IMG/VR virus record: IMGVR_UViG_3300013111_000388 | Span: 1-32,059 of that record | Direction: 5' to 3' (one strand) | Length of the DNA stretch: 32,059 nt | DNA from: a virus | Part shown: one piece after another, positions 92 through 28,704 of the stretch | Position numbering within the stretch: the stretch's first letter is position 1 | Layout: the number at the start of each line of letters is the position of its first letter | Notes under the pieces: generated by a model | The model's input: only the letters and a program-made list of their open reading frames with translations | What the model was told of the DNA's origin: nothing | Database searches by the model: none | Position numbers and translations under genes: made by a program

Positions 92-694
92 TCACCTACT
101 TTTCAGGGGTTTCACTATAGCGCCTTTAGCGCCGAACTTTTGTTTGGATTTGGGGCCCCCTTTCTTTGGTTTTGGTGGTTTTTTGGGATCTTCATAATTC
201 AATTCAGATGAGGACGTACCTTCGATTATGCCATAATTGTCCCCTATCATAATAACATCAACTACCCTGTCCTGTGCCATTAAACTAGTTTCTTGATCTT
301 CTACAAAAATCTCATATATAACTGGACACAACTCCTTTACTACGTTATTGGGATCAATAAAAGATGAAATCCCAGTGACGATCGCCCTATGCTCCACAAC
401 TATAATTGCTTCGTCACTGTCTTCAGATCTACGAAAATTGAGAGACCCAATGACGCCATCTCTGTGTGGTTCAGGTATTGCACTTGTTGGTAACTTTCTA
501 GAACTTATTATAATAGCAGGGTAACGTTTTCCTGCTGCATCTACAGTTCTGGATCTACTCATATGATCGATTGCTGCTTCGGTGTCGACAACAACATCTC
601 CCGACAGTGCAAGCACAGTCGAAGCCAAAACGAGCGTCCTCGACGTTTCATAAGATTGAAGTTTTCTTTTTAACTTTTCTAGTTCTTCACTCAT
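92..694 (-). CDS. Carrier-domain protein 1 (domain plus basic tail)
   Basis: This 200-residue protein is unidentified by name. Residues about 45-160 match the N-terminal domain of the two genes upstream, sharing the pattern PAIII...K, DSD, an H-A-I/C-V strand, a P.IYE strand and a final (D/N)YGI(I/V). The remaining 40 residues are a lysine/proline/glycine-rich tail (KKPPKPKKGG) with no catalytic domain. The tail matches the linker that joins the domain to an enzyme in the next gene. The ATG at 694 overlaps the upstream TGA (ATGA), so translation is probably coupled. A virion (baseplate or spike) role is inferred from the lytic domains on its paralogs. An OB-like beta fold is possible but not shown. 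Confidence 0.8.
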   Translation of the reverse strand: MSEELEKLKRKLQSYETSRTLVLASTVLALSGDVVVDTEAAIDHMSRSRTVDAAGKRYPAIIISSRKLPTSAIPEPHRDGVIGSLNFRRSEDSDEAIIVVEHRAIVTGISSFIDPNNVVKELCPVIYEIFVEDQETSLMAQDRVVDVIMIGDNYGIIEGTSSSELNYEDPKKPPKPKKGGPKSKQKFGAKGAIVKPLKSR

Positions 695-2001
695 ATCATT
701 ATCGCCTTTGTTATCAACTGTGATGACCCTTTTATAGAAGGATGTATGTGATCCATCATCTCGACTTGTGGCGTAGATCCAGCAAAACTAAATGTAGAAT
801 ACTTACTAGATATATGGTTATTGACCTCTGTAGTAAATCTACCATAATGGTCTATCTTGGATTGATTGTCGAAATCATTTTTAGTATTAACTTTTCTTGT
901 TTTACTTCCATTCCAAGGAAGGTTTACTAACATCACCCTGACCTCATATCCCGACTTTATTCCAAGAGCAACGATTGCATCAATATTCTTTTTTGCAAGA
1001 TCAGCAGTGAATGATGTATTTCTATTCTTTCCATAACCGCCTCTTGCATGCTTTCCCCAACCTGATTGACCAAGAGCATCGTTTGTCCCTGCTGATACTA
1101 TCATCACTTTTTTCTTTCCCGAAGTAGTTAGTGTCGTTTTCCCAAAATGTGCTTTAAGTCTTCGAAGTATCTGCGCTGTGGTGGCGCCCGAAAGAGCAAC
1201 GGAGGTTTTGCATTGGTAATATAAGTTCTTACCTCGACAGTGAGGGTAATTTATGATTCCTTGACCGACGGCGGCGATGGTCATTCCAGCGGCGATACTA
1301 TCCCCAACAATCAAAAATTCAGTTTCTTTGATGTCTGGTTTTTCTTTTATTGCATCTGCAAGGGATTTGCCAGGTGTTGTATTTTTTGGTGATGGTTTCG
1401 GTACACCCTTCGAGGCATCTTTTAATTTATTTGACTGCTTTTTTTTAAACTTGTCTTCCGTTTTGGGTTTGTCTTTTGGCTTAGGTGGTTTTTCCCCCTT
1501 AACATATGGCAGTCCAGATGCTTTTTGAGATCTTACTATTCCATAATTTGGTCCAAGCATTCGCACGACGCAACTTCTGTTAGTCTGCATGTCAGTACCA
1601 TCTTCCGATTCCCCAACTTCATATACGATTGTCAACATTTCAGCTGGTAATTTTGCGGGATTCACATGACTGCCCTGACCTGCGACGATGGCATAGTGCC
1701 TAGATAAAGTTATTGAGTTAGTTGTATCTGAGTCTTCATCTTTGGATACTATTCTCAAAGATGATAACACCTTATCGTGTGCTGGGGAAATTTGTGATAC
1801 GGAGATCTTTTCTGTTTTTATTATTATAGCAGGAGTAAACTCTTCACTGTACCCCACCACTCTTGATTTGGATAGGTGTGCGGCCGCAGTGCGAAGTCTA
1901 GACTCAAACGATTCGCCTGGTGTGTGTGATACCACGTCTTCGTCGAGTACCTGATTACCAGAACCTGCTTCTGTAAATAAGGAATATTTATCTTTACTCA
2001 T
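691..2001 (-). CDS. Carrier-domain protein 2 fused to an SGNH/GDSL hydrolase
   Basis: The 436-residue product has the shared domain at about 45-160, then a lysine/proline-rich linker (about 168-220), then an SGNH hydrolase at about 226-436. All SGNH blocks are visible: GDS with Ser235, Gly272 in SGATT, GTND with Asn307, and D417-x-x-H420 in DHIHPS. SGNH enzymes are serine esterases or acetyl hydrolases, often acting on acetylated polysaccharides. The substrate here is unknown. The start is the ATG at 2001, which overlaps the upstream TGA and has GGAG about 8 bases before it. A longer reading from 2064 lacks this support. The modular layout suggests a virion-borne enzyme acting on the cell envelope. 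Confidence 0.85.
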   Translation of the reverse strand: MSKDKYSLFTEAGSGNQVLDEDVVSHTPGESFESRLRTAAAHLSKSRVVGYSEEFTPAIIIKTEKISVSQISPAHDKVLSSLRIVSKDEDSDTTNSITLSRHYAIVAGQGSHVNPAKLPAEMLTIVYEVGESEDGTDMQTNRSCVVRMLGPNYGIVRSQKASGLPYVKGEKPPKPKDKPKTEDKFKKKQSNKLKDASKGVPKPSPKNTTPGKSLADAIKEKPDIKETEFLIVGDSIAAGMTIAAVGQGIINYPHCRGKNLYYQCKTSVALSGATTAQILRRLKAHFGKTTLTTSGKKKVMIVSAGTNDALGQSGWGKHARGGYGKNRNTSFTADLAKKNIDAIVALGIKSGYEVRVMLVNLPWNGSKTRKVNTKNDFDNQSKIDHYGRFTTEVNNHISSKYSTFSFAGSTPQVEMMDHIHPSIKGSSQLITKAIMI

Positions 2002-3401
2002 CTCTTGCGCTCCGCCCTCATAAATCCCGCTTTTTTGCCTGCGACATGAGTTTCTAGGCTCCAATCATTTGGTCCTAAAGTAATTGTCTGCCCCTTGGCG
2101 AACGGTATCGAGTAGGTATATCCGTCCTTACCCCTAAACCTATAGATATACCCTTCTTCCTTTACTTTTTTATTGTGGGCAGCTAAGACTTCCCTGAATT
2201 TCTTTAAGTTCTTAAGATAATTCTCCACTGTCTTTTTGGGGTTTCCTATAACTTTCCCTTTAATTGGACTATAGATTTTGGTGCCTTCGAGGGCGCCAAT
2301 ATCCAGTCCGCCGTGAGAAGTTCCTGCTGCCCTCTTTTGTCCAAATTCTGCAAAACCAGCTGGGGCGTACACGTTTCCACCTTTGCCTGAGTTTATGTAG
2401 TAATCCCATGCTTTACCCTTATTGAGTGGGTGTTTGTTGCATACTTTGGCCAGGTGTCTGCGGGGATTATACTTTTTCTGTTTGCGGCCGCGCCATCTTA
2501 CAACCTCGATATGAGTGTGAGGGAATTGATCCTTACCTTCCTTGTTCAAAGGGTCCATCATACCAGACCTGCCAACCATTCCTAAATAATCCCCAACCTC
2601 AACTTTGCCGTTTTCTAGAAGCGCTTCATTTACGGCTTGAAAATGAAAGAATTTAAGAATATAGTTATCAATAAGAGAGTCATTATTGCCAACACCCACG
2701 AGCGAGACCCTCACGCCAGCCGACCAAGAACTTCTGACACTATTGCCATACCCTGGAGCAAATCTAACCATATTATGTATAATGACATAAACTGCGATTG
2801 TGTGATTCAATTTTAAATCCTTAAATCCATTAGGTCCGTCTTCTGGTACTGGCACAACCACCAATTCGCCGCGAGGGTTGCGGTAAAACGCTGGTTTAGC
2901 TGGGGGTCGGTCGACTCCGAGTTCTATAGCACCAGACTTAATGTGAGAATCCACAATACCATAATCTGTCGACAACATTTGAACCCTAACTTCTCTAATG
3001 GTATTCTGATTGGTTGTAACATCCGTCGAAGAGTCTGTGAATTCATATATTACTGTAAATATCTCAGCAGGCATGGTAATTGCGTTTCGTCCTCCAGTAA
3101 GTCCCTCAACTGCACAATAATGCCTAATGACAGACATTGCAGTATCTGAATCGGTATCCACGGATTCTGGATTTATTAAATCCCGTGCCTTTTGGTGAGC
3201 GTCTGGGATTTGAGATATACTTATCTTTTGCGACTTCAATATCAAGGCACTCCTCGTATTCAGTAATGATTCCGTCTTTGCTGAAGCGTGTGAGTTTAGG
3301 GACTCAATATTATCCGTGATGTCGGTGCCGACTGCTTGGGTTTTTGAAGTGTCCAACGTTGTGTCGGTCATAGAATAGTGTAGATATTTTGATGATGTCA
3401 C
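1998..3401 (-). CDS. Carrier-domain protein 3 fused to a circularly permuted M23 peptidase
   Basis: The 467-residue product carries the shared domain at about 45-155, then a peptidase region. M23 (LytM-type) enzymes normally show HxxxD first, then a lone His, then HxH. Here the second half comes first: GYGN at 217-220, His253 in FFHF, a VGRSG turn and HTHIE (His295, His297). The first half follows: SHGGLDIGA (His363, Asp367) and GTKIYSPIKGKVIG. All five expected metal-binding and catalytic residues are present but rotated. Expected activity is peptidoglycan endopeptidase, probably virion-associated. The start is a GTG at 3401 with GGAGG 6 bases upstream. The ATG ten codons later is an alternative. 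Confidence 0.85.
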   Translation of the reverse strand: MTSSKYLHYSMTDTTLDTSKTQAVGTDITDNIESLNSHASAKTESLLNTRSALILKSQKISISQIPDAHQKARDLINPESVDTDSDTAMSVIRHYCAVEGLTGGRNAITMPAEIFTVIYEFTDSSTDVTTNQNTIREVRVQMLSTDYGIVDSHIKSGAIELGVDRPPAKPAFYRNPRGELVVVPVPEDGPNGFKDLKLNHTIAVYVIIHNMVRFAPGYGNSVRSSWSAGVRVSLVGVGNNDSLIDNYILKFFHFQAVNEALLENGKVEVGDYLGMVGRSGMMDPLNKEGKDQFPHTHIEVVRWRGRKQKKYNPRRHLAKVCNKHPLNKGKAWDYYINSGKGGNVYAPAGFAEFGQKRAAGTSHGGLDIGALEGTKIYSPIKGKVIGNPKKTVENYLKNLKKFREVLAAHNKKVKEEGYIYRFRGKDGYTYSIPFAKGQTITLGPNDWSLETHVAGKKAGFMRAERKR

Positions 3402-3402
3402 C

Positions 3403-3693
3403 CTAGTCCTCCGAAGAGTTTATCATCTCAAACAAGCTATCCTTTTCATCTTCGGAAATGGAGTTGTCGACCTTAGAACTCTTTTTGTGTTGTAGTGCTG
3501 CAATCTTAACTAACTGTTCATTTGACCTTTGAAGGGTTTCTAAATACTTTGCCGCCACCAGGCCAACTTCTCGATGGCGGTCGGTTGTCTCTTGCATGTA
3601 TTTCATCAGATTTGTCAACAAAACTTTCGTTGCGGCACGATCTTCGGTGACGTTTCTGGTTGCTTCTGATATTAATTCTTCAATCTCTTTCAT
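3403..3693 (-). CDS. Small helical protein of unknown function
   Basis: This 96-residue, charged protein is predicted by eye to be almost all helix, with heptad-like spacing across residues 20-70 and an acidic C-terminus (SEDEKDSLFEMINSSED). It sits between the late sigma factor and the carrier-domain genes, with its TAG directly before the GTG of the next gene. I do not recognise a family. Its place next to a gp55-like gene makes a transcription accessory role conceivable, but it does not resemble T4 gp33 and nothing in the sequence supports that directly. Confidence 0.75.
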   Translation of the reverse strand: MKEIEELISEATRNVTEDRAATKVLLTNLMKYMQETTDRHREVGLVAAKYLETLQRSNEQLVKIAALQHKKSSKVDNSISEDEKDSLFEMINSSED

Positions 3694-3705
3694 ACAATAA
3701 ATATG

Positions 3706-4410
3706 CTAAATTTGAAATTTATCACCCCGTTCATATTTGATCACAAAGTACTTATACCTTTCCCTCATCTTATTCAATGTATTTACTATCTGCTTTGTTT
3801 TGAGTCCAGTAATTTCTCTTAAATACAAATAGACCGCTTTTTTGTTTAAGATTTCTATATCCTCAACATTTTCTAAAAGTATCTTCACAGCAGACAATAC
3901 TTTCTTTTCATTATCCTTGGTGAAGAGGTTTGAACCTTGCCATCGATCAACCTCTAGTTTTAAATACCCCCAGAACTCGTACTTCTCTCGCCTATTGACA
4001 TAACCTTCATCGTTGTATATCAACCGTTCGTGCTGGTTTTCTTTGACGATCTCCTCATAAGCAACCTCTCTTTTTACTTTTGTGGAATTCTTCTTGAACT
4101 GGTGAATGAACCAATGCTTCGTAATTACGGAAAAATAAGAAAATGCTTTAGATCCTCTATTCGGGTCGTACTTGCTGAGAATAGTTGTTAACCAAACTTT
4201 ACAATCGTCTTTCAGGACATCTATGTTTGGTATGTTTGTGAAGTTATAAGTGTAGATGATCTTATCAACCATCTCACTAAAGGCGGGTTGTATATATTGT
4301 ACATACAGTTTTTCACGTTTATCTCTACTTTCAGTAGAACAATATTCGACTATTGCATCCTCGTGAACACTTGTAAAGTAATAATTTTTAGTCCTCTTCT
4401 TTCTCGGCAT
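3706..4410 (-). CDS. Late-transcription sigma factor, T4 gp55-like
   Basis: The 234-residue protein resembles the divergent sigma factors that T4-like marine phages use for late genes. The best sign is residues about 78-100, where YDPNRGSKAFSYFS is followed by ITKHWFIHQ. This corresponds to the sigma region-2 segment (compare the Y/FDP..G..F..Y....R pattern of sigma-70 proteins). The N-terminus is basic (MPRKKRTKNYY), and a long helical C-terminal part ends in KYFVIKYERGD. In T4, gp55 directs host RNA polymerase to the late promoter TATAAATA with gp33 and the sliding clamp. Neither partner is in this window. The gene overlaps the upstream one by 23 bases. Confidence 0.75.
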   Translation of the reverse strand: MPRKKRTKNYYFTSVHEDAIVEYCSTESRDKREKLYVQYIQPAFSEMVDKIIYTYNFTNIPNIDVLKDDCKVWLTTILSKYDPNRGSKAFSYFSVITKHWFIHQFKKNSTKVKREVAYEEIVKENQHERLIYNDEGYVNRREKYEFWGYLKLEVDRWQGSNLFTKDNEKKVLSAVKILLENVEDIEILNKKAVYLYLREITGLKTKQIVNTLNKMRERYKYFVIKYERGDKFQI

Positions 4411-4953: not shown

Positions 4954-5160
4954 CTAATCGCTTCCAACTGTACTATTTGTTTCATTCACATCCATAAGAT
5001 GCGATGTATCAATAGTTGGAGGGTTTAATATAATAATCTCCTCGTTTTCACCCAACATTAAATCAAACCCCCTCAATACTGGGGTGATATCCGTTTGCTT
5101 CATTAGTGAGTCTTGTAGTGCCAACATAATTGCACCAAGTGCTTGATCAGATAATTTCAT
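4954..5160 (-). CDS. Small conserved-looking phage protein
   Basis: This 68-residue protein has an amphipathic first half (MKLSDQALGAIMLALQDSLM) followed by TDITPVLRGFDL and an acidic, hydrophobic stretch (ENEEIIILNPP). The style matches small proteins of unknown function that recur in marine T4-like phages. No catalytic motif is visible. Its ATG overlaps the TGA of the APS kinase gene, so it sits at the exact border between the glycan island and the phage core genes. Confidence 0.7.
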   Translation of the reverse strand: MKLSDQALGAIMLALQDSLMKQTDITPVLRGFDLMLGENEEIIILNPPTIDTSHLMDVNETNSTVGSD

Positions 5161-5699
5161 TTTTTTCCTCCTGTTTCTTCTAAAATAAAATTTACTAAAT
5201 TTTCTACCGACTGGTCAATAGTTTCCTTATTGGTGTCGATAATTAAATCTGCGTTCTTTGGTTCTTGGAATGGATCCGAAATGCCCGTAAAGTTCGGGAT
5301 ATGCTCAGGATCCGTTTTAGGTAAAAGTGCCTTTCTGTACAATCCTTTGGGATCTCTCTCAATTAAGGTTTCAATATCACACTTAACATAAACAATCCTA
5401 GACAGCGGGTTGTCAGACTTTACCTCTCTCCGTATATCATCATAAGGGTTTATTGCAGACATTACACAGACCACTTTGTTGCGGGACAAAACCTTCCCAA
5501 CAAACGAAAGTCTTCTGATATTAGTGTTCCTGTCCTCTTTTGAAAACCCAAGGTCCTTGCAGAGTCCCTCTCTATATTCGTCACCGTCGATAACCTCTAC
5601 ATTATAACCCATCTCTCTTAGGCGGGTTTGTGCTAAAAAAGTCATTGTAGACTTACCTGCGCCACTCATGCCTGTCATCTGTACAAAAATACCACTCAT
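5157..5699 (-). CDS. cysC: Adenylylsulfate (APS) kinase
   Basis: APS kinase phosphorylates adenylylsulfate with ATP to give PAPS, the sulfate donor for sulfotransferases. The 180 residues carry the family signature: P-loop GMSGAGKST (10-18), IDGD (37-40), KDLGFSKEDR (48-57) followed by NIRR, RDPKGLY (115-121) and NFTGISDPFQEP (136-147). In the usual SFISPY motif the phosphorylated Ser is replaced by Asn (SAINPY, Asn84). That Ser is not strictly needed in characterised enzymes, so activity is still plausible. It starts two bases after an adenylyltransferase-like gene and lies 2.1 kb from a sulfotransferase. CysC-like proteins in capsule loci can instead be CDP-amidate kinases (Campylobacter Cj1415 type), but the partners of that pathway are not visible here. 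Confidence 0.85.
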   Translation of the reverse strand: MSGIFVQMTGMSGAGKSTMTFLAQTRLREMGYNVEVIDGDEYREGLCKDLGFSKEDRNTNIRRLSFVGKVLSRNKVVCVMSAINPYDDIRREVKSDNPLSRIVYVKCDIETLIERDPKGLYRKALLPKTDPEHIPNFTGISDPFQEPKNADLIIDTNKETIDQSVENLVNFILEETGGKK

Positions 5700-6961: not shown

Positions 6962-7827
6962 GACAACTCCTCTTTCAAAGTCTTAAATACGGACTCTAGT
7001 CCCTTTCCCAATTTAACCTTGCTCTCCCATCCGTGTGATTTAAATTTTGACAAATTCGCTTTAGTCAACATTACATCACCTACTCGGGCATCAACATACT
7101 TAAACTCTTGCTCTGGAAAATATTGTAACACAATTTCTTTCATTTCATTCAAACTAATATTATCCCCAGACCCAATGTCATACCAGTGTCCCCACAAATC
7201 GTCCTTATCGATATTCTCAGCACAAAAAATGTTTGCAGAAACAATGTCGTCGACGTGGGTCATATCGCGACGCTGTTCTCCGTCACCCGTAATGAATGGT
7301 ACTTTACCTTCTTTGATATATTTTTTCCAATTACAAACAACTGTAGCATATTCACTATCAGCAACTTGATCATAAGAGTAAACATTAAAATACCTCAATG
7401 CAACAGTCTTCAACCCATACAATTCACTGTACAATAGAGTCTCCAATTCACCAACATATTTAGAAAGTGCATACGGACTAGCGGGACCATTACCATTCCC
7501 AACAACAGATGATGAACTGCTGTAGATTACAGGAATGCCCTCTCTTTTCGCCCAATGCAAGATATTAGTAGTCGAATTAATGTTATTATTCATAACCACC
7601 GTAGGATGCTTTACACTAAACGCAACTCTAGGAATTGCTGCAAAATGCACAACTACATCAATAGGGTTGTTTTGGTGGTTGATGTGTAATTCTTTTACCT
7701 TCTTTGATAGGTCAAACTCGCGATTCCCATTCATATCATACCCCACATAGGTATGTCCGAGTTCTTCCCACTTCTTAACGAAGTTTCCGCCGATGTATCC
7801 TTCGTGTCCCGTTACCAACGCTCTCAT
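6958..7827 (-). CDS. NAD-dependent sugar epimerase/dehydratase (extended SDR)
   Basis: This 289-residue extended short-chain dehydrogenase has TGHEGYIG (6-13) for NAD binding, HFAAIPRVAFSV (61-72), the catalytic Ser region SSSSSVVG and the Y119-x3-K123 pair (YALSK). RYFNVY and RRDMTHVDDIV further along are typical of UDP-glucose 4-epimerase-like members. It probably isomerises an NDP-hexose or NDP-uronate at C4. It lies directly upstream of the dehydrogenase, and the pair may make a galacturonate-type donor. It is ATGA-coupled at both ends. Confidence 0.85.
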   Translation of the reverse strand: MRALVTGHEGYIGGNFVKKWEELGHTYVGYDMNGNREFDLSKKVKELHINHQNNPIDVVVHFAAIPRVAFSVKHPTVVMNNNINSTTNILHWAKREGIPVIYSSSSSVVGNGNGPASPYALSKYVGELETLLYSELYGLKTVALRYFNVYSYDQVADSEYATVVCNWKKYIKEGKVPFITGDGEQRRDMTHVDDIVSANIFCAENIDKDDLWGHWYDIGSGDNISLNEMKEIVLQYFPEQEFKYVDARVGDVMLTKANLSKFKSHGWESKVKLGKGLESVFKTLKEELS

Positions 7828-8510
7828 TTGTATTTTAAATCCTTTAAGTGTTTCTCAAATTTTGGTAGTTCATGATCTGAACACAAATCCTTGTATGCCT
7901 CTGGGTCTTTTCCTATGGCACGGCCGTCGACCTTTCTCTTTCCATAATTTGTCTCGTTGCCTTTACCAGCGCGGCCTAACACTGAAACATTCCAATCAAA
8001 GACCCAATCCTCAACATAATCTGGATAGTCTTTAAAACTATGCTCTGATTCTAATCCAAACTTCTCTTCCATTTGGTGCTGGACTTTTTCGGGATCCGTT
8101 ACGAGATCTTCATATTTAACCTCAAGATCAATCAAGTTGCCAAACAGGACCTTGTTTCTTTGGTCCATGGACTCAATCCACCTCTTCGGTTTAACATAGT
8201 TCCCATCTGACAGGACAACATCTCTCCCATCTCTAACTACGTTTATAACTCTAATGTCTTCTTTTAGAATATCAGCTGCTTGAAATTGGAACTCTGGTAC
8301 CAACACGTTACTTAAAAGTGCTGGTGGGTGTCTCTTTCCTATTGTAAATCCGCTCTTGCTTTCATGCTTGACGAACTTGTCAAAGTCCATCTCATGACCG
8401 TCGAAACCCTCTTTGTAAATAACTTCCGTATCTTTAAATGCGTAACACATCCTCAAAAGTAATGTGGTGCCCGACTTCGCACATCCTGTAATAAAAATCT
8501 TCTTACTCAT
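7824..8510 (-). CDS. PAPS-dependent sulfotransferase
   Basis: Sulfotransferases move sulfate from PAPS to a hydroxyl or amine. The 228-residue protein has the 5'-phosphosulfate loop ITGCAKSGTTLLLRM (7-21) and the 3'-phosphate motif RVINVVRDGRDVVLS (87-101), which define the family. A C-terminal WxxDW-like aromatic segment is also present. The start is the ATG at 8510, which overlaps the upstream TAA (TAATG) and has GGGAG five bases before it. An in-frame ATG at 8522 would contain that ribosome-binding site. The nearby APS kinase would supply PAPS. With glycosyltransferases on both sides, a glycan acceptor is likely. Confidence 0.85.
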   Translation of the reverse strand: MSKKIFITGCAKSGTTLLLRMCYAFKDTEVIYKEGFDGHEMDFDKFVKHESKSGFTIGKRHPPALLSNVLVPEFQFQAADILKEDIRVINVVRDGRDVVLSDGNYVKPKRWIESMDQRNKVLFGNLIDLEVKYEDLVTDPEKVQHQMEEKFGLESEHSFKDYPDYVEDWVFDWNVSVLGRAGKGNETNYGKRKVDGRAIGKDPEAYKDLCSDHELPKFEKHLKDLKYK

Positions 8511-9133
8511 TATATCTCCCAAGTCTTATACTCTGGTTCTTTGGTTTTATTCGTATTGTGCATTCTATATCTATAGAACGGAATTCTTAAGTGATGAATT
8601 TTATACTCTTGTCCTAATCTTTTTCTCAATTCCTCTTCTTCTCTATGGCGCATCTTACCATTATATCCACCCATCTGTAAGAAGGGATCTCTACGATACA
8701 TTATACCACAAGATATGTTGTCTTGTTCTGCATATCTTCTCTCTAGTGTGTTCTCGAAGTTGTCTACCATGAGATAATCGCAAGACACGCAAAAGGCGTC
8801 ATGATTTGCTTCAAGGTAAGTCTTCATTATATAACACATATCTGAATTTACATAATCATCGGCATCCACTCTAATGAAGAATTGTCCTTTACTATTTTGG
8901 ACACCCACATTTGCAGCGACAGCAACACCACCGTTGGTCCCTGTACTTACAACCTTGACATCTTCTTTGAACGGTTGCAGTGCTGCAATTGAGCCATCAG
9001 TACTACAATCGTCGACGACAATAACTTCATGATTGACGTGAGATTGGTTTAAACAACTCCTCACAGCGCGAGAGATATATTTTTCATAATTATAATTTGT
9101 TATAATGACAGACACATCAGGATTAGAACTCAC
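8510..9133 (-). CDS. Family 2 glycosyltransferase
   Basis: This is a GT-A fold enzyme with PDVSVIITNYNYEKYI at the N-terminus, VVDDCSTD and the DxDD-type metal site VDADDY, the order typical of GT2. It transfers a sugar from a nucleotide donor; donor and acceptor are unknown. The product is short (207 residues) with no membrane segment. I chose the GTG at 9133 because GGAG lies seven bases upstream and it overlaps the NeuB-like gene by only 11 bases. An ATG at 9175 would add 14 residues ahead of the family start. Confidence 0.85.
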   Translation of the reverse strand: MSSNPDVSVIITNYNYEKYISRAVRSCLNQSHVNHEVIVVDDCSTDGSIAALQPFKEDVKVVSTGTNGGVAVAANVGVQNSKGQFFIRVDADDYVNSDMCYIMKTYLEANHDAFCVSCDYLMVDNFENTLERRYAEQDNISCGIMYRRDPFLQMGGYNGKMRHREEEELRKRLGQEYKIHHLRIPFYRYRMHNTNKTKEPEYKTWEI

Positions 9134-9836
9134 TGTTTTTCTCCATAATTTCAAATTGCTTAACAATGTTAACAAACTGTCTTAGGGAATCTTGGTCAAA
9201 AGATCCCAAATGTCCCCCCTCCAACTTGGTTTGAGAAAAGATATTATTAGAATAGTGCTTCTCAAGTATCGTAGCACCGCGAGAATGGGCGCGTAGCGCC
9301 GCGCCGATGCCAATTGTATGATCACTATACCCCGAATACCCAGGACGCTTAAAATGGGGCATTTTTGCCAATTTTTGATCGTCTAAATATGTAGGATATT
9401 TGGATACACAAAACAAATACTCCACCTGTTCACTGTGCCCGAAAGGAAAATCTGCGAAATCATGCATTCCAGTTGAAACAATTGTTGGTTTGCCGTCTGA
9501 CAATATCAATTCACAGAGGCGTGGATCCGACTTAGAAGTTCTGCTTGCAATCTTGTGTGTCTTTACACCCAAACTGTCTAACCACTCAAACCTCTCCTCA
9601 TCAAAGACAGACGCCATGAATTCAATTCCTATATTATCACAGTACTTTGCCAATGCATAAGCATCCTGAAAAGAGACGTCCCTATATTTCTTATTAGTTA
9701 CTCCCAACAACTTCTCAGAATCCATCAGTTGGACTTTCACAGCGTCGGCGCCACCTTGAAAAGCACTTAGAGACATTCTCTTCAGTTCATCCAATGAACC
9801 ATGATGTTGATTACAAAGATCAAGAATAATTTTCAC
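9123..9836 (-). CDS. neuB: NeuB-like nonulosonic (sialic-type) acid synthase, catalytic domain only
   Basis: NeuB enzymes condense phosphoenolpyruvate with an N-acetyl hexosamine to give a nine-carbon acid (sialic, legionaminic or pseudaminic). The TIM-barrel signature is clear: NQHHGSLDE near the N-terminus, GGADAVKVQ (28-36), KIAS (95-98), PTIVSTGM (117-124), CVSKYPT (143-149), GYSDHT (169-174) and EKHY (192-195). His173 and His194 correspond to the usual metal-binding histidines. The 237 residues cover the barrel, but the C-terminal SAF/antifreeze-like domain of typical 340-350-residue NeuB proteins is missing. The GTG start at 9836 has AAGGAG upstream. It sits among NeuA, deacetylase and formyltransferase genes. 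Confidence 0.85.
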   Translation of the reverse strand: MKIILDLCNQHHGSLDELKRMSLSAFQGGADAVKVQLMDSEKLLGVTNKKYRDVSFQDAYALAKYCDNIGIEFMASVFDEERFEWLDSLGVKTHKIASRTSKSDPRLCELILSDGKPTIVSTGMHDFADFPFGHSEQVEYLFCVSKYPTYLDDQKLAKMPHFKRPGYSGYSDHTIGIGAALRAHSRGATILEKHYSNNIFSQTKLEGGHLGSFDQDSLRQFVNIVKQFEIMEKNSEF

Positions 9837-10500
9837 TTTTAAATCTCCTTAAATTAATTTCAGCTCTTTCCACTATCTCAGGGTTCTTATCTTTATTTTG
9901 ATATAGGGTACCCTTAGATTCTAGTTTCTTCTTATTTATCTTGTTTGCAATTATATCATCTATGTTTTCAGATAGCAAGCGAAATCCCGTCTGACAAGAT
10001 TTATAAAACAAGGTATCTAAATTATCAAACCTATCTATGTCAATATTGTCGTCTGCCACTACACTACCTGCATCGATTGTATTGTCTATATAATGAAGCG
10101 TAGCGCCAATTAAGTCTGGTTTATTATCGTACATTGCCCACAAAGAACTATCAACACCCCTATAATGCTCAACCAACCCAGTGTGAATATTAACACATCC
10201 ATATTCAGGTAATTCAAATATTTCTTTTTTTAAAAGTGGGGCACCAAACACAAATCCGACTTTAGGATCCAACTTAGCAAGAGACTGTAGGACAAAATTA
10301 GAATGCAGCTGGTGCTTAGAGCACCTCAATATGTTGGTTCTGTGCAACAAAGACAAGTCAGAATTGAAATAATCCGCTTCCTCTTGAGTTATGTGACCCT
10401 TGTCGATCACCACAACAAGTGGTATTTCCACCCTTTCATAGAGCGTCTCCAAGAACTTCATATGTCTTGGGTGGTTTGATGTAATTGCAAAACAACTCAT
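9820..10500 (-). CDS. Sugar N-formyltransferase-like protein
   Basis: This 226-residue member of the methionyl-tRNA formyltransferase fold uses 10-formyl-THF to formylate an amine. The catalytic Asn-His-Asp set is visible: Asn104 and His106 in GCVNIHTG, and Asp143 in NTIDAGSV, with YRGVDSSLWAM and GATLHYID between them. There is no tRNA-binding C-terminal domain, as expected for sugar formyltransferases. Its place between the NeuB-like synthase and a PIG-L deacetylase suggests it formylates an amino sugar or a nonulosonate freed of its acetyl group. It overlaps both neighbours by a few bases. Confidence 0.85.
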   Translation of the reverse strand: MSCFAITSNHPRHMKFLETLYERVEIPLVVVIDKGHITQEEADYFNSDLSLLHRTNILRCSKHQLHSNFVLQSLAKLDPKVGFVFGAPLLKKEIFELPEYGCVNIHTGLVEHYRGVDSSLWAMYDNKPDLIGATLHYIDNTIDAGSVVADDNIDIDRFDNLDTLFYKSCQTGFRLLSENIDDIIANKINKKKLESKGTLYQNKDKNPEIVERAEINLRRFKSENYS

Positions 10501-11186
10501 AACTTGTACGGTAATTTCCCTAATCTCTTAAATGCTTCCGCTCGACGGTTGGGGGCAATACTGTAACCTCTAACTAAAGATATGCCATTAAGATACTGCT
10601 CTATGCCTGGTATTACACCTCTCTGAGATGTATAGACTGCCATGGCCTCACACTTTGTTATGTATTCCTTAGTTATATCTACAACAAAGTCTGGATTTTC
10701 AAAAGGATCCAATATCTCACACTGCAAGACCATATCCACTGTATGTGTTGGTCCCAATTCTTCCATGATGTTTTCTGTGGATTTCCAACAAGACTCTTCG
10801 ACGATATTCGATGTAATCCTGTGGTCTCTGTGTTTACATATATCGCTATGAGTTATGACAATATTTGGTCGAACTTGTCTAATCTTTTGTATGACTTTGT
10901 GAAACGTTTGTTTATCATTCCTTATCTCTTGACAAGGAAGTCCCAAAGTTGAAACTTCTTTTACTCCAAGAATATGACATGCATATGTTGCTTCTTTCAT
11001 TCTTACACTGGTTATGTCGTCTTGCAATCCAGATCCCTGTTCATAACCCGTTGCGCCGTCAGTCATAAAACAAACGTGCACCTTTGCGCGCTGTTTTGAC
11101 CATTTAGCAATCGTACCGCCACATCCAATCGTTTCGTCGTCCTGATGTGCGACGAAAACCAAAACCCTCTTTCCGCTCAATTCCAA
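10497..11186 (-). CDS. PIG-L/LmbE-family N-acetyl-sugar deacetylase
   Basis: The family hydrolyses N-acetyl groups from glucosamine-like sugars using zinc. The 229-residue product has AHQDDE (13-18, AHPDDE in most members) and a THSDICKHRDH segment (112-122). His14, Asp17 and His122 are the expected zinc ligands. The start appears to be TTG at 11186, with AAGGA seven bases upstream; no suitable ATG is near. Removal of acetyl here would create the free amine that the adjacent formyltransferase needs. The precise substrate is not readable from sequence. Confidence 0.85.
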   Translation of the reverse strand: MELSGKRVLVFVAHQDDETIGCGGTIAKWSKQRAKVHVCFMTDGATGYEQGSGLQDDITSVRMKEATYACHILGVKEVSTLGLPCQEIRNDKQTFHKVIQKIRQVRPNIVITHSDICKHRDHRITSNIVEESCWKSTENIMEELGPTHTVDMVLQCEILDPFENPDFVVDITKEYITKCEAMAVYTSQRGVIPGIEQYLNGISLVRGYSIAPNRRAEAFKRLGKLPYKL

Positions 11187-11743
11187 CGATCGTTCCTTCT
11201 CTTAATGAACTCTACATCATTCAAAGTATGTACATCGTGAATATCACAAACATATACTCCACACTTTGTACTTAAGTCTTTTTGAAAGACATATCCCCGC
11301 TTCATTATCCTAAATGCTGCGTTCTGCATTAAGTCAGGAGATACGCTTATTAATTCATTTCTATCATTCTCTATAAACGTCCTGATTGCGTCATCCAAAA
11401 CCTCTCCAGTTATCTCTGGTGAATTCGCCTGTAATGAAATGTAGATATTTGCTTCGGCGTCATTGTCTTCCATGTAAAGTACCGCGCTGCGGATTGCTTC
11501 CATCTTATAGACATGATCTTGCGACAGTTCTGGGTCTCTCCTATGCAGACTTGCTCCATACCTGGCAGCAACGGAAGAAACTTCTTTATCCTCTGTTGTG
11601 ACCCAAACATCCGTTATTAATTCACTTGCCTGCGCAGCCTTAATAGACCAAGCAAGCATAGGGTGTCCCCAGATTGGATAAATGTTTTTACGCGGCAATC
11701 TCTTGGATCCACCACGCGCAGGAATTATTGCTGTTATTTTCAT
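11177..11743 (-). CDS. neuA: CMP-nonulosonate (CMP-sialic acid) cytidylyltransferase
   Basis: This enzyme activates a nonulosonic acid with CTP to give the CMP-sugar donor. The N-terminal CTP-binding signature IPARGGSKRLPRKNI (7-21) is intact, followed by WSIKAA, DVWVTTEDKEVSSVAARYGA and the QANSPEI segment where many NeuA proteins have QPTSP. At 188 residues it is shorter than the common 220-230, with a brief C-terminus. It lies two genes upstream of the NeuB-like synthase, which makes the pathway assignment stronger than either gene alone. Legionaminate or pseudaminate could be the true substrate. Confidence 0.85.
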   Translation of the reverse strand: MKITAIIPARGGSKRLPRKNIYPIWGHPMLAWSIKAAQASELITDVWVTTEDKEVSSVAARYGASLHRRDPELSQDHVYKMEAIRSAVLYMEDNDAEANIYISLQANSPEITGEVLDDAIRTFIENDRNELISVSPDLMQNAAFRIMKRGYVFQKDLSTKCGVYVCDIHDVHTLNDVEFIKRRNDRWN

Positions 11744-25463: not shown

Positions 25464-26126
25464 CTAACCTCCTGTTTCTAGTTTTTCTAATTTGTTGAAT
25501 AATATAGGACTGACCTTCTTTAGATACAGGTCTCTATGAAAAAAGTACGCCTCGAATCCGTTTGCAAAATATTCCCTTAAAGAAGTTGCACCATAAGGAC
25601 TGTAAAATATTCCCTGAGAAAGTGTCGTCATGGTAGGGTACCCGATCACCTGTGAAAAGTACATGTCCAACTCTGTGTCATACTCTGCGTTTTGCATCTT
25701 TTCTTTTGGTAGTGATATTCCAGATGTTTCGAATTCTTTCTGCAGTTGGGATCTCTTTTTTAAAAACTCCCTTTCTATCTCCATGTCAGAGTAAACAAAG
25801 TTCTTATACCTCTCTTCTACAGAGTGTCCTATTTCGTGTACTATATCATCCAATACACTTAAGTTATCCTCTTGACTGTTACTAGCATATATTGCACCGT
25901 CCATGTATGCGGCATTATATCCTTTCTTTTTTAAGAAATCGAATTCTCCAAATATAATGTAATCAATATCAGATAAAAAATGACTTGGAAGATTTTCTAA
26001 TGTTTCCTTAAGGTCCCCTGTCGACATATCAAAATCAATCGGATCTTTGATGACCACATTTATACCAGAAACAGTTAAAAAATTAGTTTCATTCAGTTTC
26101 GCTTTGCTTTTTAGATAACCCCGCAT
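25464..26126 (-). CDS. HEIGH zinc metalloprotease-like protein
   Basis: The 220-residue protein has DDIVHEIGHSVEERY, a canonical HExxH zinc-binding helix (His97, Glu98, His101). A downstream REYFANGFEAYFF helix holds Glu185 and Glu192, either of which may be the third ligand (gluzincin pattern). No signal peptide is present. Its target is unknown; inactivation of host proteins or virion maturation are options. I chose the ATG at 26126, which follows an AAGGAG run about 12 bases upstream. A start at 26153 lacks a ribosome-binding site. Confidence 0.72.
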   Translation of the reverse strand: MRGYLKSKAKLNETNFLTVSGINVVIKDPIDFDMSTGDLKETLENLPSHFLSDIDYIIFGEFDFLKKKGYNAAYMDGAIYASNSQEDNLSVLDDIVHEIGHSVEERYKNFVYSDMEIEREFLKKRSQLQKEFETSGISLPKEKMQNAEYDTELDMYFSQVIGYPTMTTLSQGIFYSPYGATSLREYFANGFEAYFFHRDLYLKKVSPILFNKLEKLETGG

Positions 26127-26385
26127 TATAAAGTCTTTCTCCTTCCTCCACATCTGCCAGTGCCTGTTGATAACCTCTGACCCAGTTTTCCTCAGAGATA
26201 CAAAGAACCAACTGTGGAAACTGCTCAGCTAAGACATCAATAATCATGCCTACAGTAACTTTCTCATCTTCTGGGTCTTTCTCATTGCCCACATAGTTGA
26301 TGATATAATCCTGCAACTCATTTCCGCCATCAACCTGATTGTCTAGCGTTGTAAGTTCTGCGCTTAAATCTTTTTCTATTTTCAT
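26089..26385 (-). CDS. Small acidic protein of unknown function
   Basis: This is a 98-residue acidic protein with helical segments (DELQ-like GGNELQDYIINYVG, VTVGMIIDVLAEQFP and ENWVRGYQQALADV). The ENW.RGYQQAL motif looks conserved in style, but no function can be given. It lies between phoH and the metalloprotease gene, overlapping the latter by 38 bases with the start chosen here. Confidence 0.7.
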   Translation of the reverse strand: MKIEKDLSAELTTLDNQVDGGNELQDYIINYVGNEKDPEDEKVTVGMIIDVLAEQFPQLVLCISEENWVRGYQQALADVEEGERLYNAGLSKKQSETE

Positions 26386-27954: not shown

Positions 27955-28704
27955 ATGAAGACTATTAAAATTTTGTTTTTATTATTTTGTTTATCTTTTC
28001 TCAATTCGTGCATGGTATCGGTGCATTCTAACAGATTCCCAGTCGACTCTTTTGTCAAAGTTCACGCAAGAATGACCATCGAAGTGTGTGCTGATACTGA
28101 ATTAATGTCAGTTTGTGAAAAAAGTCACTTTTATTCGGTAGGATCTGGGTCTGTGGTTGGACACCGAAAAGGCAAGACCTATATACTTACAGCAGGTCAT
28201 GTTTGTCATGCAGATGTTGAAGGTCCCGTCAAAGCTATCGCTTCTTCAGTGTCGATGGCATTTAAAGTTCAAAACATAAAAAATGATTATTATAATGTAA
28301 AAGTCTTCAACATCTCGCCTGAGTTTGTTAATGGAAACGAACTAGACCTCTGCTTGCTTGAAAGTAACGGAATAATAGATATGCCTACATTAAACCTGTC
28401 CCTAACTGGTCCAAAGATTGGGGAAGAGGTTTACAACGTTGCTGCTCCGACTGGATTTTTCTATCCGCCAGCTGTCCCTTTGCTGTCTGGATATTATAGT
28501 GGTCCTTTAGGACAATACCATGATTTATTAACAATACCTGCGACTGGGGGTAGTTCTGGTTCTCCTGTTTTAAATAATCGAGGAGAATTAATTGGATTGA
28601 TCTTTGCGGCGAATGTAGATTTTCCTCAATTGGCGATTAGCATCAAATACGAGACACTACGGGACTACTTGCAAGAAAATTTATATCCTCAACCACCTCT
28701 CTAA
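27955..28704 (+). CDS. Trypsin-like serine protease, predicted lipoprotein
   Basis: This is the only plus-strand gene. The 249-residue product begins with a lipoprotein-type signal (KTIKILFLLFCLSFLNSC) with Cys19 as the lipidation site. The mature part is a chymotrypsin-fold protease: His82 in TAGHVC, Asp131 in NELDLCLLE and Ser201 in GGSSGSPVLN, in the right order and with usual spacing. It should sit on the outer face of a membrane of the infected cell. GAGGA lies four bases before the ATG. TATACT and TAGTATAGAGG just upstream resemble the minus-strand elements. Possible roles are superinfection exclusion or cleavage of surface proteins; both are inference. Confidence 0.88.
   Translation: MKTIKILFLLFCLSFLNSCMVSVHSNRFPVDSFVKVHARMTIEVCADTELMSVCEKSHFYSVGSGSVVGHRKGKTYILTAGHVCHADVEGPVKAIASSVSMAFKVQNIKNDYYNVKVFNISPEFVNGNELDLCLLESNGIIDMPTLNLSLTGPKIGEEVYNVAAPTGFFYPPAVPLLSGYYSGPLGQYHDLLTIPATGGSSGSPVLNNRGELIGLIFAANVDFPQLAISIKYETLRDYLQENLYPQPPL

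Follow-up and report, generated by a model that had tools for sequence, protein, structure and literature searches.

We consider P1, a protein of 467 residues that is probably a tail-associated peptidoglycan peptidase, with a catalytic domain circularly permuted from the M23B (LytM/lysostaphin) fold. Its open reading frame has a GTG start and lies on the minus strand at positions 1998..3401 of a viral contig (IMG/VR record IMGVR_UViG_3300013111_000388), the whole 32,059 nucleotides of which were analysed and are called the window here. From the N-terminus onward, with all parts on the minus strand, the protein contains a carrier domain (residues 1-165, 2907..3401), which is delimited by the alignment of P1 with its two paralogues P2 and P3 and is common to them; the second half of an M23 domain (residues 231-320, 2442..2711), located by profile matches and made of a strand, the lone His, a GDxxG motif, the HxH strand and the NP..L end; a linker of about 32 residues (321-352, 2346..2441), lying between the two profile matches and mostly at pLDDT below 50; the first half of the M23 domain (residues 353-388, 2238..2345), which reads FG..HGGLD..GTKIYSPIKGKVIG and matches positions 9-48 of our own M23 profile and 2-54 of the Pfam profile; and a helical tail of 79 residues (389-467, 2001..2237), with a predicted helix at 388-416 that is followed by residues without M23 signal.

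In M23 enzymes the zinc is held by the HxxxD motif and the second His of the HxH motif, and the first His of HxH acts on the water together with another His, some 30 residues upstream (PMC9662197). P1 has every zinc-ligand and catalytic residue expected of this family. The expected zinc ligands are His363 and Asp367 of HGGLD (363-367, 2301..2315) and His297 of HTHIE (295-299, 2505..2519); His295 is the expected catalytic residue of the latter motif, and His253 (2643..2645) is the lone catalytic His, in a column that has His in 33 of the 33 second-half rows of the alignment A6. These motifs stand exactly where the initial annotation, which had proposed a permutation, placed them. The order of the motifs in P1 is lone His, HxH and HxxxD, while the standard order is HxxxD, lone His and HxH. 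A hidden HxxxD before residue 210 would restore the standard order, and none is present: among the 15 His residues of P1, only His363 has an Asp at +4. By chance the motifs rarely meet, as 8 out of 200,000 shuffles of residues 170-467 held PHxHxE and HxGxD together in either order. Some details of P1 are its own. The spacing from His253 to His295 is 42 residues, with an insertion near 281-292, and the aromatic residue ahead of HxxxD is Phe353, the Tyr being absent from its usual place. The old C-terminus is the segment NPRRHL (312-317), the Pro of which is common to 31 of the 33 alignment rows. His452 was considered as a second lone His and dropped, there being no profile signal in 389-467.

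The permutation is read most directly from the profile matches. The Pfam profile PF01551 matches the whole P1 as two stretches at 27.4 bits (E 3.8e-6), just short of the cut-off of 28.7. When the two halves are scanned apart, the N-terminal one matches profile 21-90 (14.5 bits) and the C-terminal one matches 2-54 (18.7 bits), so that the two profile stretches overlap at 21-54. Our own profile, built from 63 non-redundant standard viral M23 domains, gives two disjoint pieces in reversed order: profile 64-117 at residues 246-313 and profile 9-48 at residues 353-388. The real P1 scores 32.8 bits with this profile, and 500 shuffles of residues 171-467 reach 7.4 at most; each half alone scores about 20 bits, a value that none of 300 shuffles reaches. 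When the profile is doubled in tandem, residues 247-388 are matched as one domain (profile 65-170 of 244, 30.8 bits), and exchanging the halves of P1 by script splits this doubled-profile match into two pieces. With the single profile the swapped protein leaves the halves unmerged, as two pieces parted by the tail and the N-terminal lead. Each M23 element is thus present once in P1, in a rotated order that a circular profile matches continuously.

The halves were also put back into the standard order. Three re-joined constructs score 29.6, 30.8 and 33.2 bits with Pfam (native 27.4; cut-off 28.7), each given as two stretches still. In a tblastn search of 50,697 phage records, the re-joined query of 149 residues matches 40 records (best E 7e-4), and in 28 of them the match covers at least 80% of its length; the native-order query of 176 residues, which contains 27 linker residues absent from the re-joined one, matches 15 records (best E 2), none with such coverage. 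A phmmer search of solved structures with the whole P1 finds no significant match, and the single row at E <=1 is an M23 peptidase. Conversely, 14 of the 63 viral M23 domains were re-cut at the loop of P1 and their halves joined in swapped order; P1 aligns with these over the full length, and His253, His295, His297, His363 and Asp367 are invariant in the alignment. Taken together, the reversed profile order, the doubled-profile match, the gain on re-joining and the re-cut alignment support well the permutation that the initial annotation had claimed, and at the level of sequence we regard the evidence for a circular permutant as strong.

Could the two halves be the remnants of two M23 domains, each of which has lost one half, with no active site shared between them? 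Tandem standard M23 domains occur naturally (in G657), and the linker in P1 is long. The halves that remain are complementary, all five active-site residues are retained, and the lost halves have left no signal behind: residues 176-246 and 389-467 carry no M23 signal, as 26 and 78 of 300 shuffles, respectively, reach their scores, and therefore neither lost half remains. Residues 200-217, considered as the leftover strand of a first copy, were dropped on the same lack of profile signal in 176-246. Both cores are, moreover, predicted with confidence, and the pTM reaches 0.63 in the model of residues 205-392 though 59 of its 188 residues are below a pLDDT of 50. We therefore consider such a decayed tandem unlikely.

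The predictions were made with the alignments A6 and A7 of M23 half domains, having 33 second-half rows with 120 extra residues and 40 first-half rows. Short second-half fragments were misplaced by MAFFT on the wrong half, and those with 120 extra downstream residues, which were placed correctly, were used; the motif columns were verified in both alignments. Since the alignments are assembled from M23 half domains, with the extra residues as noise, the models are not independent of the permutation hypothesis. The model of residues 170-467 has a mean pLDDT of 59 and a pTM of 0.50, with regional means of 89 (250-279), 81-86 (290-319) and 78, 91 and 74 (360-389). The shorter model has a mean pLDDT of 65, with regional means of 83-89 (245-274), 75-88 (295-324) and 87 (365-384). 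Its pTM of 0.63, reached despite much disorder, suggests a definite arrangement of the cores with respect to one another. Foldseek finds no match for the P1 models in the PDB and BFVD at E 1e-3. In second looks at the PDB with VIA-align, M23 peptidases, as judged from the titles, make up 13 of 19 and 10 of 11 rows listed, with Z of 3.7-4.6 and 3.5-4.7, where Z below 8 is weak according to the note of the tool; the matches cover residues 170-349 of P1 at most, which is the N-terminal half only. The weight of this result lies in nearly all leading rows being one family, M23, despite the weak Z. In these superpositions, low-confidence residues of P1 from about 200-205 align just ahead of the second-half strands, and the range of lysostaphin that is matched begins at 296-299, which lies after its HxxxD motif. 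On this placement, the residues near 200-205 may be the leftover of the strand beside the break, in a region (176-246) with no profile signal. The predicted structure agrees with the permutation, and we do not take it as decisive.

A related arrangement is a domain swap, in which the second half of one chain would pair with the first half of another, with the active site between subunits and the order of the motifs still rotated. Trimeric tail hub proteins such as T4 gp5 give a precedent, and a linker of about 32 residues permits either arrangement. As a consistent single unit is already obtained when the monomer is predicted, and as nothing specifically indicates an exchange, we hold the swap to be quite unlikely.

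The next question is whether the rotated order exists in other proteins. Viral M23 loci were gathered with the pattern GPHLHFEV, giving at least 120 loci, and among those listed there are 119 in-frame occurrences of the motif: 110 have HxxxD upstream, in the standard order, 8 are cut by the sequence end, 1 has a variant first motif and none is rotated. An earlier count over 80 of those loci and 12 others has 84 of 91 in the standard order and none rotated. A scan of the viral contigs (viral_contigs) with PHTHIEV gives 13 stretches, of which 3 are from the phage of P1, 3 are standard-order M23 (L089, L095, L100) and 7 are short or unrelated frames, with no other rotated M23 among them. Scanning genome_contigs for the rotated motif pair in GC-rich codons gives 8 stretches, all standard-order M23. 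A profile of the re-cut domains, run on two phyla (398 and 395 genomes) at E 1e-21, a threshold far too strict for a divergent permutant such as P1, and with 12 candidates per genome scored among the matches listed, matches 0 and 2 genomes and no permutant; the two matched genomes have a tandem of two standard domains (G657) and a standard single domain (G664). A second protein with the motif order of P1, which the initial annotation had suggested looking for, was not met in the sequences searched.

We turn our attention to the locus. P1 is the first of three tandem genes on the minus strand (window 92-3401) that have a common N-terminal domain and differ behind it, with a permuted M23 domain in P1, a GDSL-like esterase domain in P2 and nothing but a short tail in P3. 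The gene of P2 (691..2001), the ATG of which overlaps the stop of P1, has the esterase domain at residues 232-425 (PF13472, 34.5 bits, cut-off 32.9), and that of P3 (92..694), assigned from the alignment of the three proteins, has no Pfam match. On the other side, a gene of 96 aa (3403..3693, minus strand) separates P1 from a late sigma-factor-like gene (3706..4410, minus strand; PHROGs late sigma transcription factor, E 9.2e-5), which serves as the synteny anchor. With the sigma-factor gene as query we find 50 related loci (52-100% identity), and every one of the 50 has, 280-341 bases past the sigma match, the start of an open frame of 269-1277 aa. The proteins at this position include 44 distinct ones, in which Pfam (E 0.01) finds Amidase_2 (6 proteins), VanY (4), phage tail lysozyme (3), M23 (2, P1 and L045), M74 (2), DUF2272 (2) and three M15 models (1 each), and at least half of the 44 have no match at this threshold. 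The N-terminal domain of P1 is related to that of L038-L041 and L043, and most of the other loci are comparable to P1 by position only. A profile from the N-terminal domain of L038-L041 matches P3 (E 4e-11), P1 (4e-6), P2 (5e-6) and L043 (4e-13); each of these relatives has a single carrier-type domain on its stretch, versus three in the phage of P1. The first long gene after the sigma factor in L035-L084 is in itself a natural series of lysin domain replacement.

Downstream in G001 there are a gene of 672 aa, a gene of 2800 aa and a homologue of the baseplate wedge. This wedge homologue and the wall-hydrolase domains found at the same position in relatives are the context of a tail lysin, and because of them the natural reading of the gene order is that P1 is a tail-entry enzyme, which would be present in the virion. 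A relative that is 76% identical by the wedge gene (L028) has a contig that ends before the position of P1, and there is no match on that contig; among three phage records whose wedge protein is related, none yields an M23 match at E 10. After P3 comes the 672-aa gene (L001, 6671-8689), which has no Pfam or PHROGs match; its GRDRPAG..SGYG..IDI is similar by eye to genes at about the same place in L040 and L045.

The LytM-like domain of P1 could be catalytically silent and serve only in binding or regulation, as some bacterial LytM factors do, and Phe353 stands where many M23 domains have a Tyr ahead of HxxxD. Standard viral M23 domains can also have a Phe at that place, P1 keeps the lone His and both motifs intact, and other genes at this genomic position carry catalytic hydrolase domains, so a silent domain appears improbable.

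Three further IMG/VR contigs encode an identical P1 (100% over 467 residues), and the stretches fetched from them are 100% identical to the window over 6,696 and 6,685 bases and 99.94% over 12,410 bases; all four records are nearly identical and count as one lineage. It is very improbable that parts of different genes were joined in the wrong order by the assembly, even allowing that the four records represent one lineage, since P1 is intact in the three other contigs with long near-identical flanks (99.94-100% over 6.7-12.4 kb), the frame is open, and relatives keep the order of the genes on the side of the sigma factor. Beyond the three contigs, no relative of P1 is found in viral_contigs with the whole protein, the core or the N-domain alignment as queries, nor in the phage collection (E 0.1) or genome_contigs, by scans that are seeded by exact peptide words and that distant relatives escape.

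Elsewhere in the window there are several genes of separate interest. An APS kinase gene (5157-5699, 147.6 bits) and a sulfotransferase gene (7824-8522, 39.9 bits) lie among sugar-nucleotide genes and could possibly form a sulfation route for a glycan. At 9123-11743 the genes for NeuB, a formyl transferase, a PIG-L deacetylase and a cytidylyltransferase follow in a row, which we take to resemble a pathway for nonulosonic (sialic-type) acids. A gene at 25464-26153 on the minus strand has a HEIGH motif and metallopeptidase family matches that are all below cut-off, and its product is possibly a zincin-like protease. At 27955-28704, a gene for a trypsin-like serine protease (PF13365, 55.1 bits) is on the plus strand, opposite to its neighbours.

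Returning to the permuted domain, the new ends of P1 fall between the strand that ends GKVIG and the next one (between positions 48 and 64 of the profile), and the old C-terminus (NPRRHL) is connected through the linker to the old N-terminus (FG..HGGLD). In a related phage, L045 (8955-10400) has an M23 domain of standard order, with HYGID at 262 and HVHFE at 418; in its profile match, about 70 residues (286 to 356) intervene at 47/44, in the same loop where the new ends of P1 are. This loop is therefore expandable. By eye, the extra residues of L045 look partly helical. As the shared carrier domain precedes the permuted domain, and as the loop that holds the new ends is enlarged in a relative, it is plausible that the new termini re-seat the carrier domain. 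Loops outside the span from HxxxD to HxH form part of the M23 groove (PMC9662197); the linker of P1 joins exactly these two loop regions, which gives rise to the idea of a strap.

Combining this information, a mechanism can be proposed. The two halves would fold together, with His363, Asp367 and His297 holding the zinc and with His295 and His253 activating the water as in LytM, and the enzyme would sit in the tail baseplate and cut cross-links of the wall at entry. The linker, which joins the loops on either side of the substrate groove, may strap over it. The permutant would have arisen from a tandem duplicate of an M23 domain that lost its two outer halves. The natural tandem of standard domains in G657 is encoded on the minus strand of L231 (G657:C71:2500-9000), as a protein of 679 aa with two complete standard M23 domains behind an HExxH region; its genome is of the phylum of G006, and a permutant can arise through an intermediate of this kind. 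For another superfamily, duplication intermediates of a permutation have been described (PMC12419801). The full proposal, which we hold tentatively, at somewhat less than even odds, is that P1 is a natural, putatively active M23 permutant that came from a tandem duplication in a tail locus with freely replaced hydrolase domains, with a linker that straps the groove loops and new ends that seat the carrier on another face of the enzyme.

M23 is a common fold of wall peptidases, and annotation profiles have its motif order built in. A permuted member scores 27.4 bits against a Pfam cut-off of 28.7, and others may therefore be overlooked. If the permutation is true, P1 shows where the M23 fold tolerates new ends, which bears on the mounting of enzymes in phage tails and on the joining of lysins to other domains, and the series of loci with different wall hydrolases beside one sigma factor makes domain turnover open to study. 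No permuted M23 is described in the literature searched, which misses most subscription papers and bioRxiv preprints, in agreement with the initial annotation, which knew of none; the M23 review, in the part of its text that was available (PMC9662197), does not mention permutation (no word starts with 'permut'). Among peptidoglycan peptidases a precedent is given by the permuted NlpC/P60 families (YaeF/poxvirus G6R, LRAT-like), which like P1 have a peptidoglycan-peptidase-type fold in permuted form; they differ in being an unrelated fold of cysteine enzymes, in which the permutation swaps the Cys and the His (PMC6403190).

The tail-associated lysozyme gp5 of T4, which is described in PMC4576200, is a wall-degrading enzyme of the particle, and the gene of P1 is likewise near a baseplate wedge gene; gp5 differs from P1 in having a lysozyme domain, not a peptidase (PMC7650644). 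An OB fold and a beta-helix are further features of gp5. Another counterpart is L045, with an M23 catalytic domain at the same position after the sigma factor; unlike P1, it has the standard motif order, the extra loop residues and an N-terminal domain without detectable relation to that of P1. With the M23B peptidases (LytM, lysostaphin; PF01551), P1 has in common, as far as its sequence tells, the zinc and catalytic motifs, the flanking strands, the NP..L end and the expected role as a wall peptidase. It differs from them in its rotated halves, in the old ends joined by a linker, in the new ends in the loop after GKVIG and in a Pfam score below the cut-off. The departure of P1 from the standard M23 is a change of order within a known fold.
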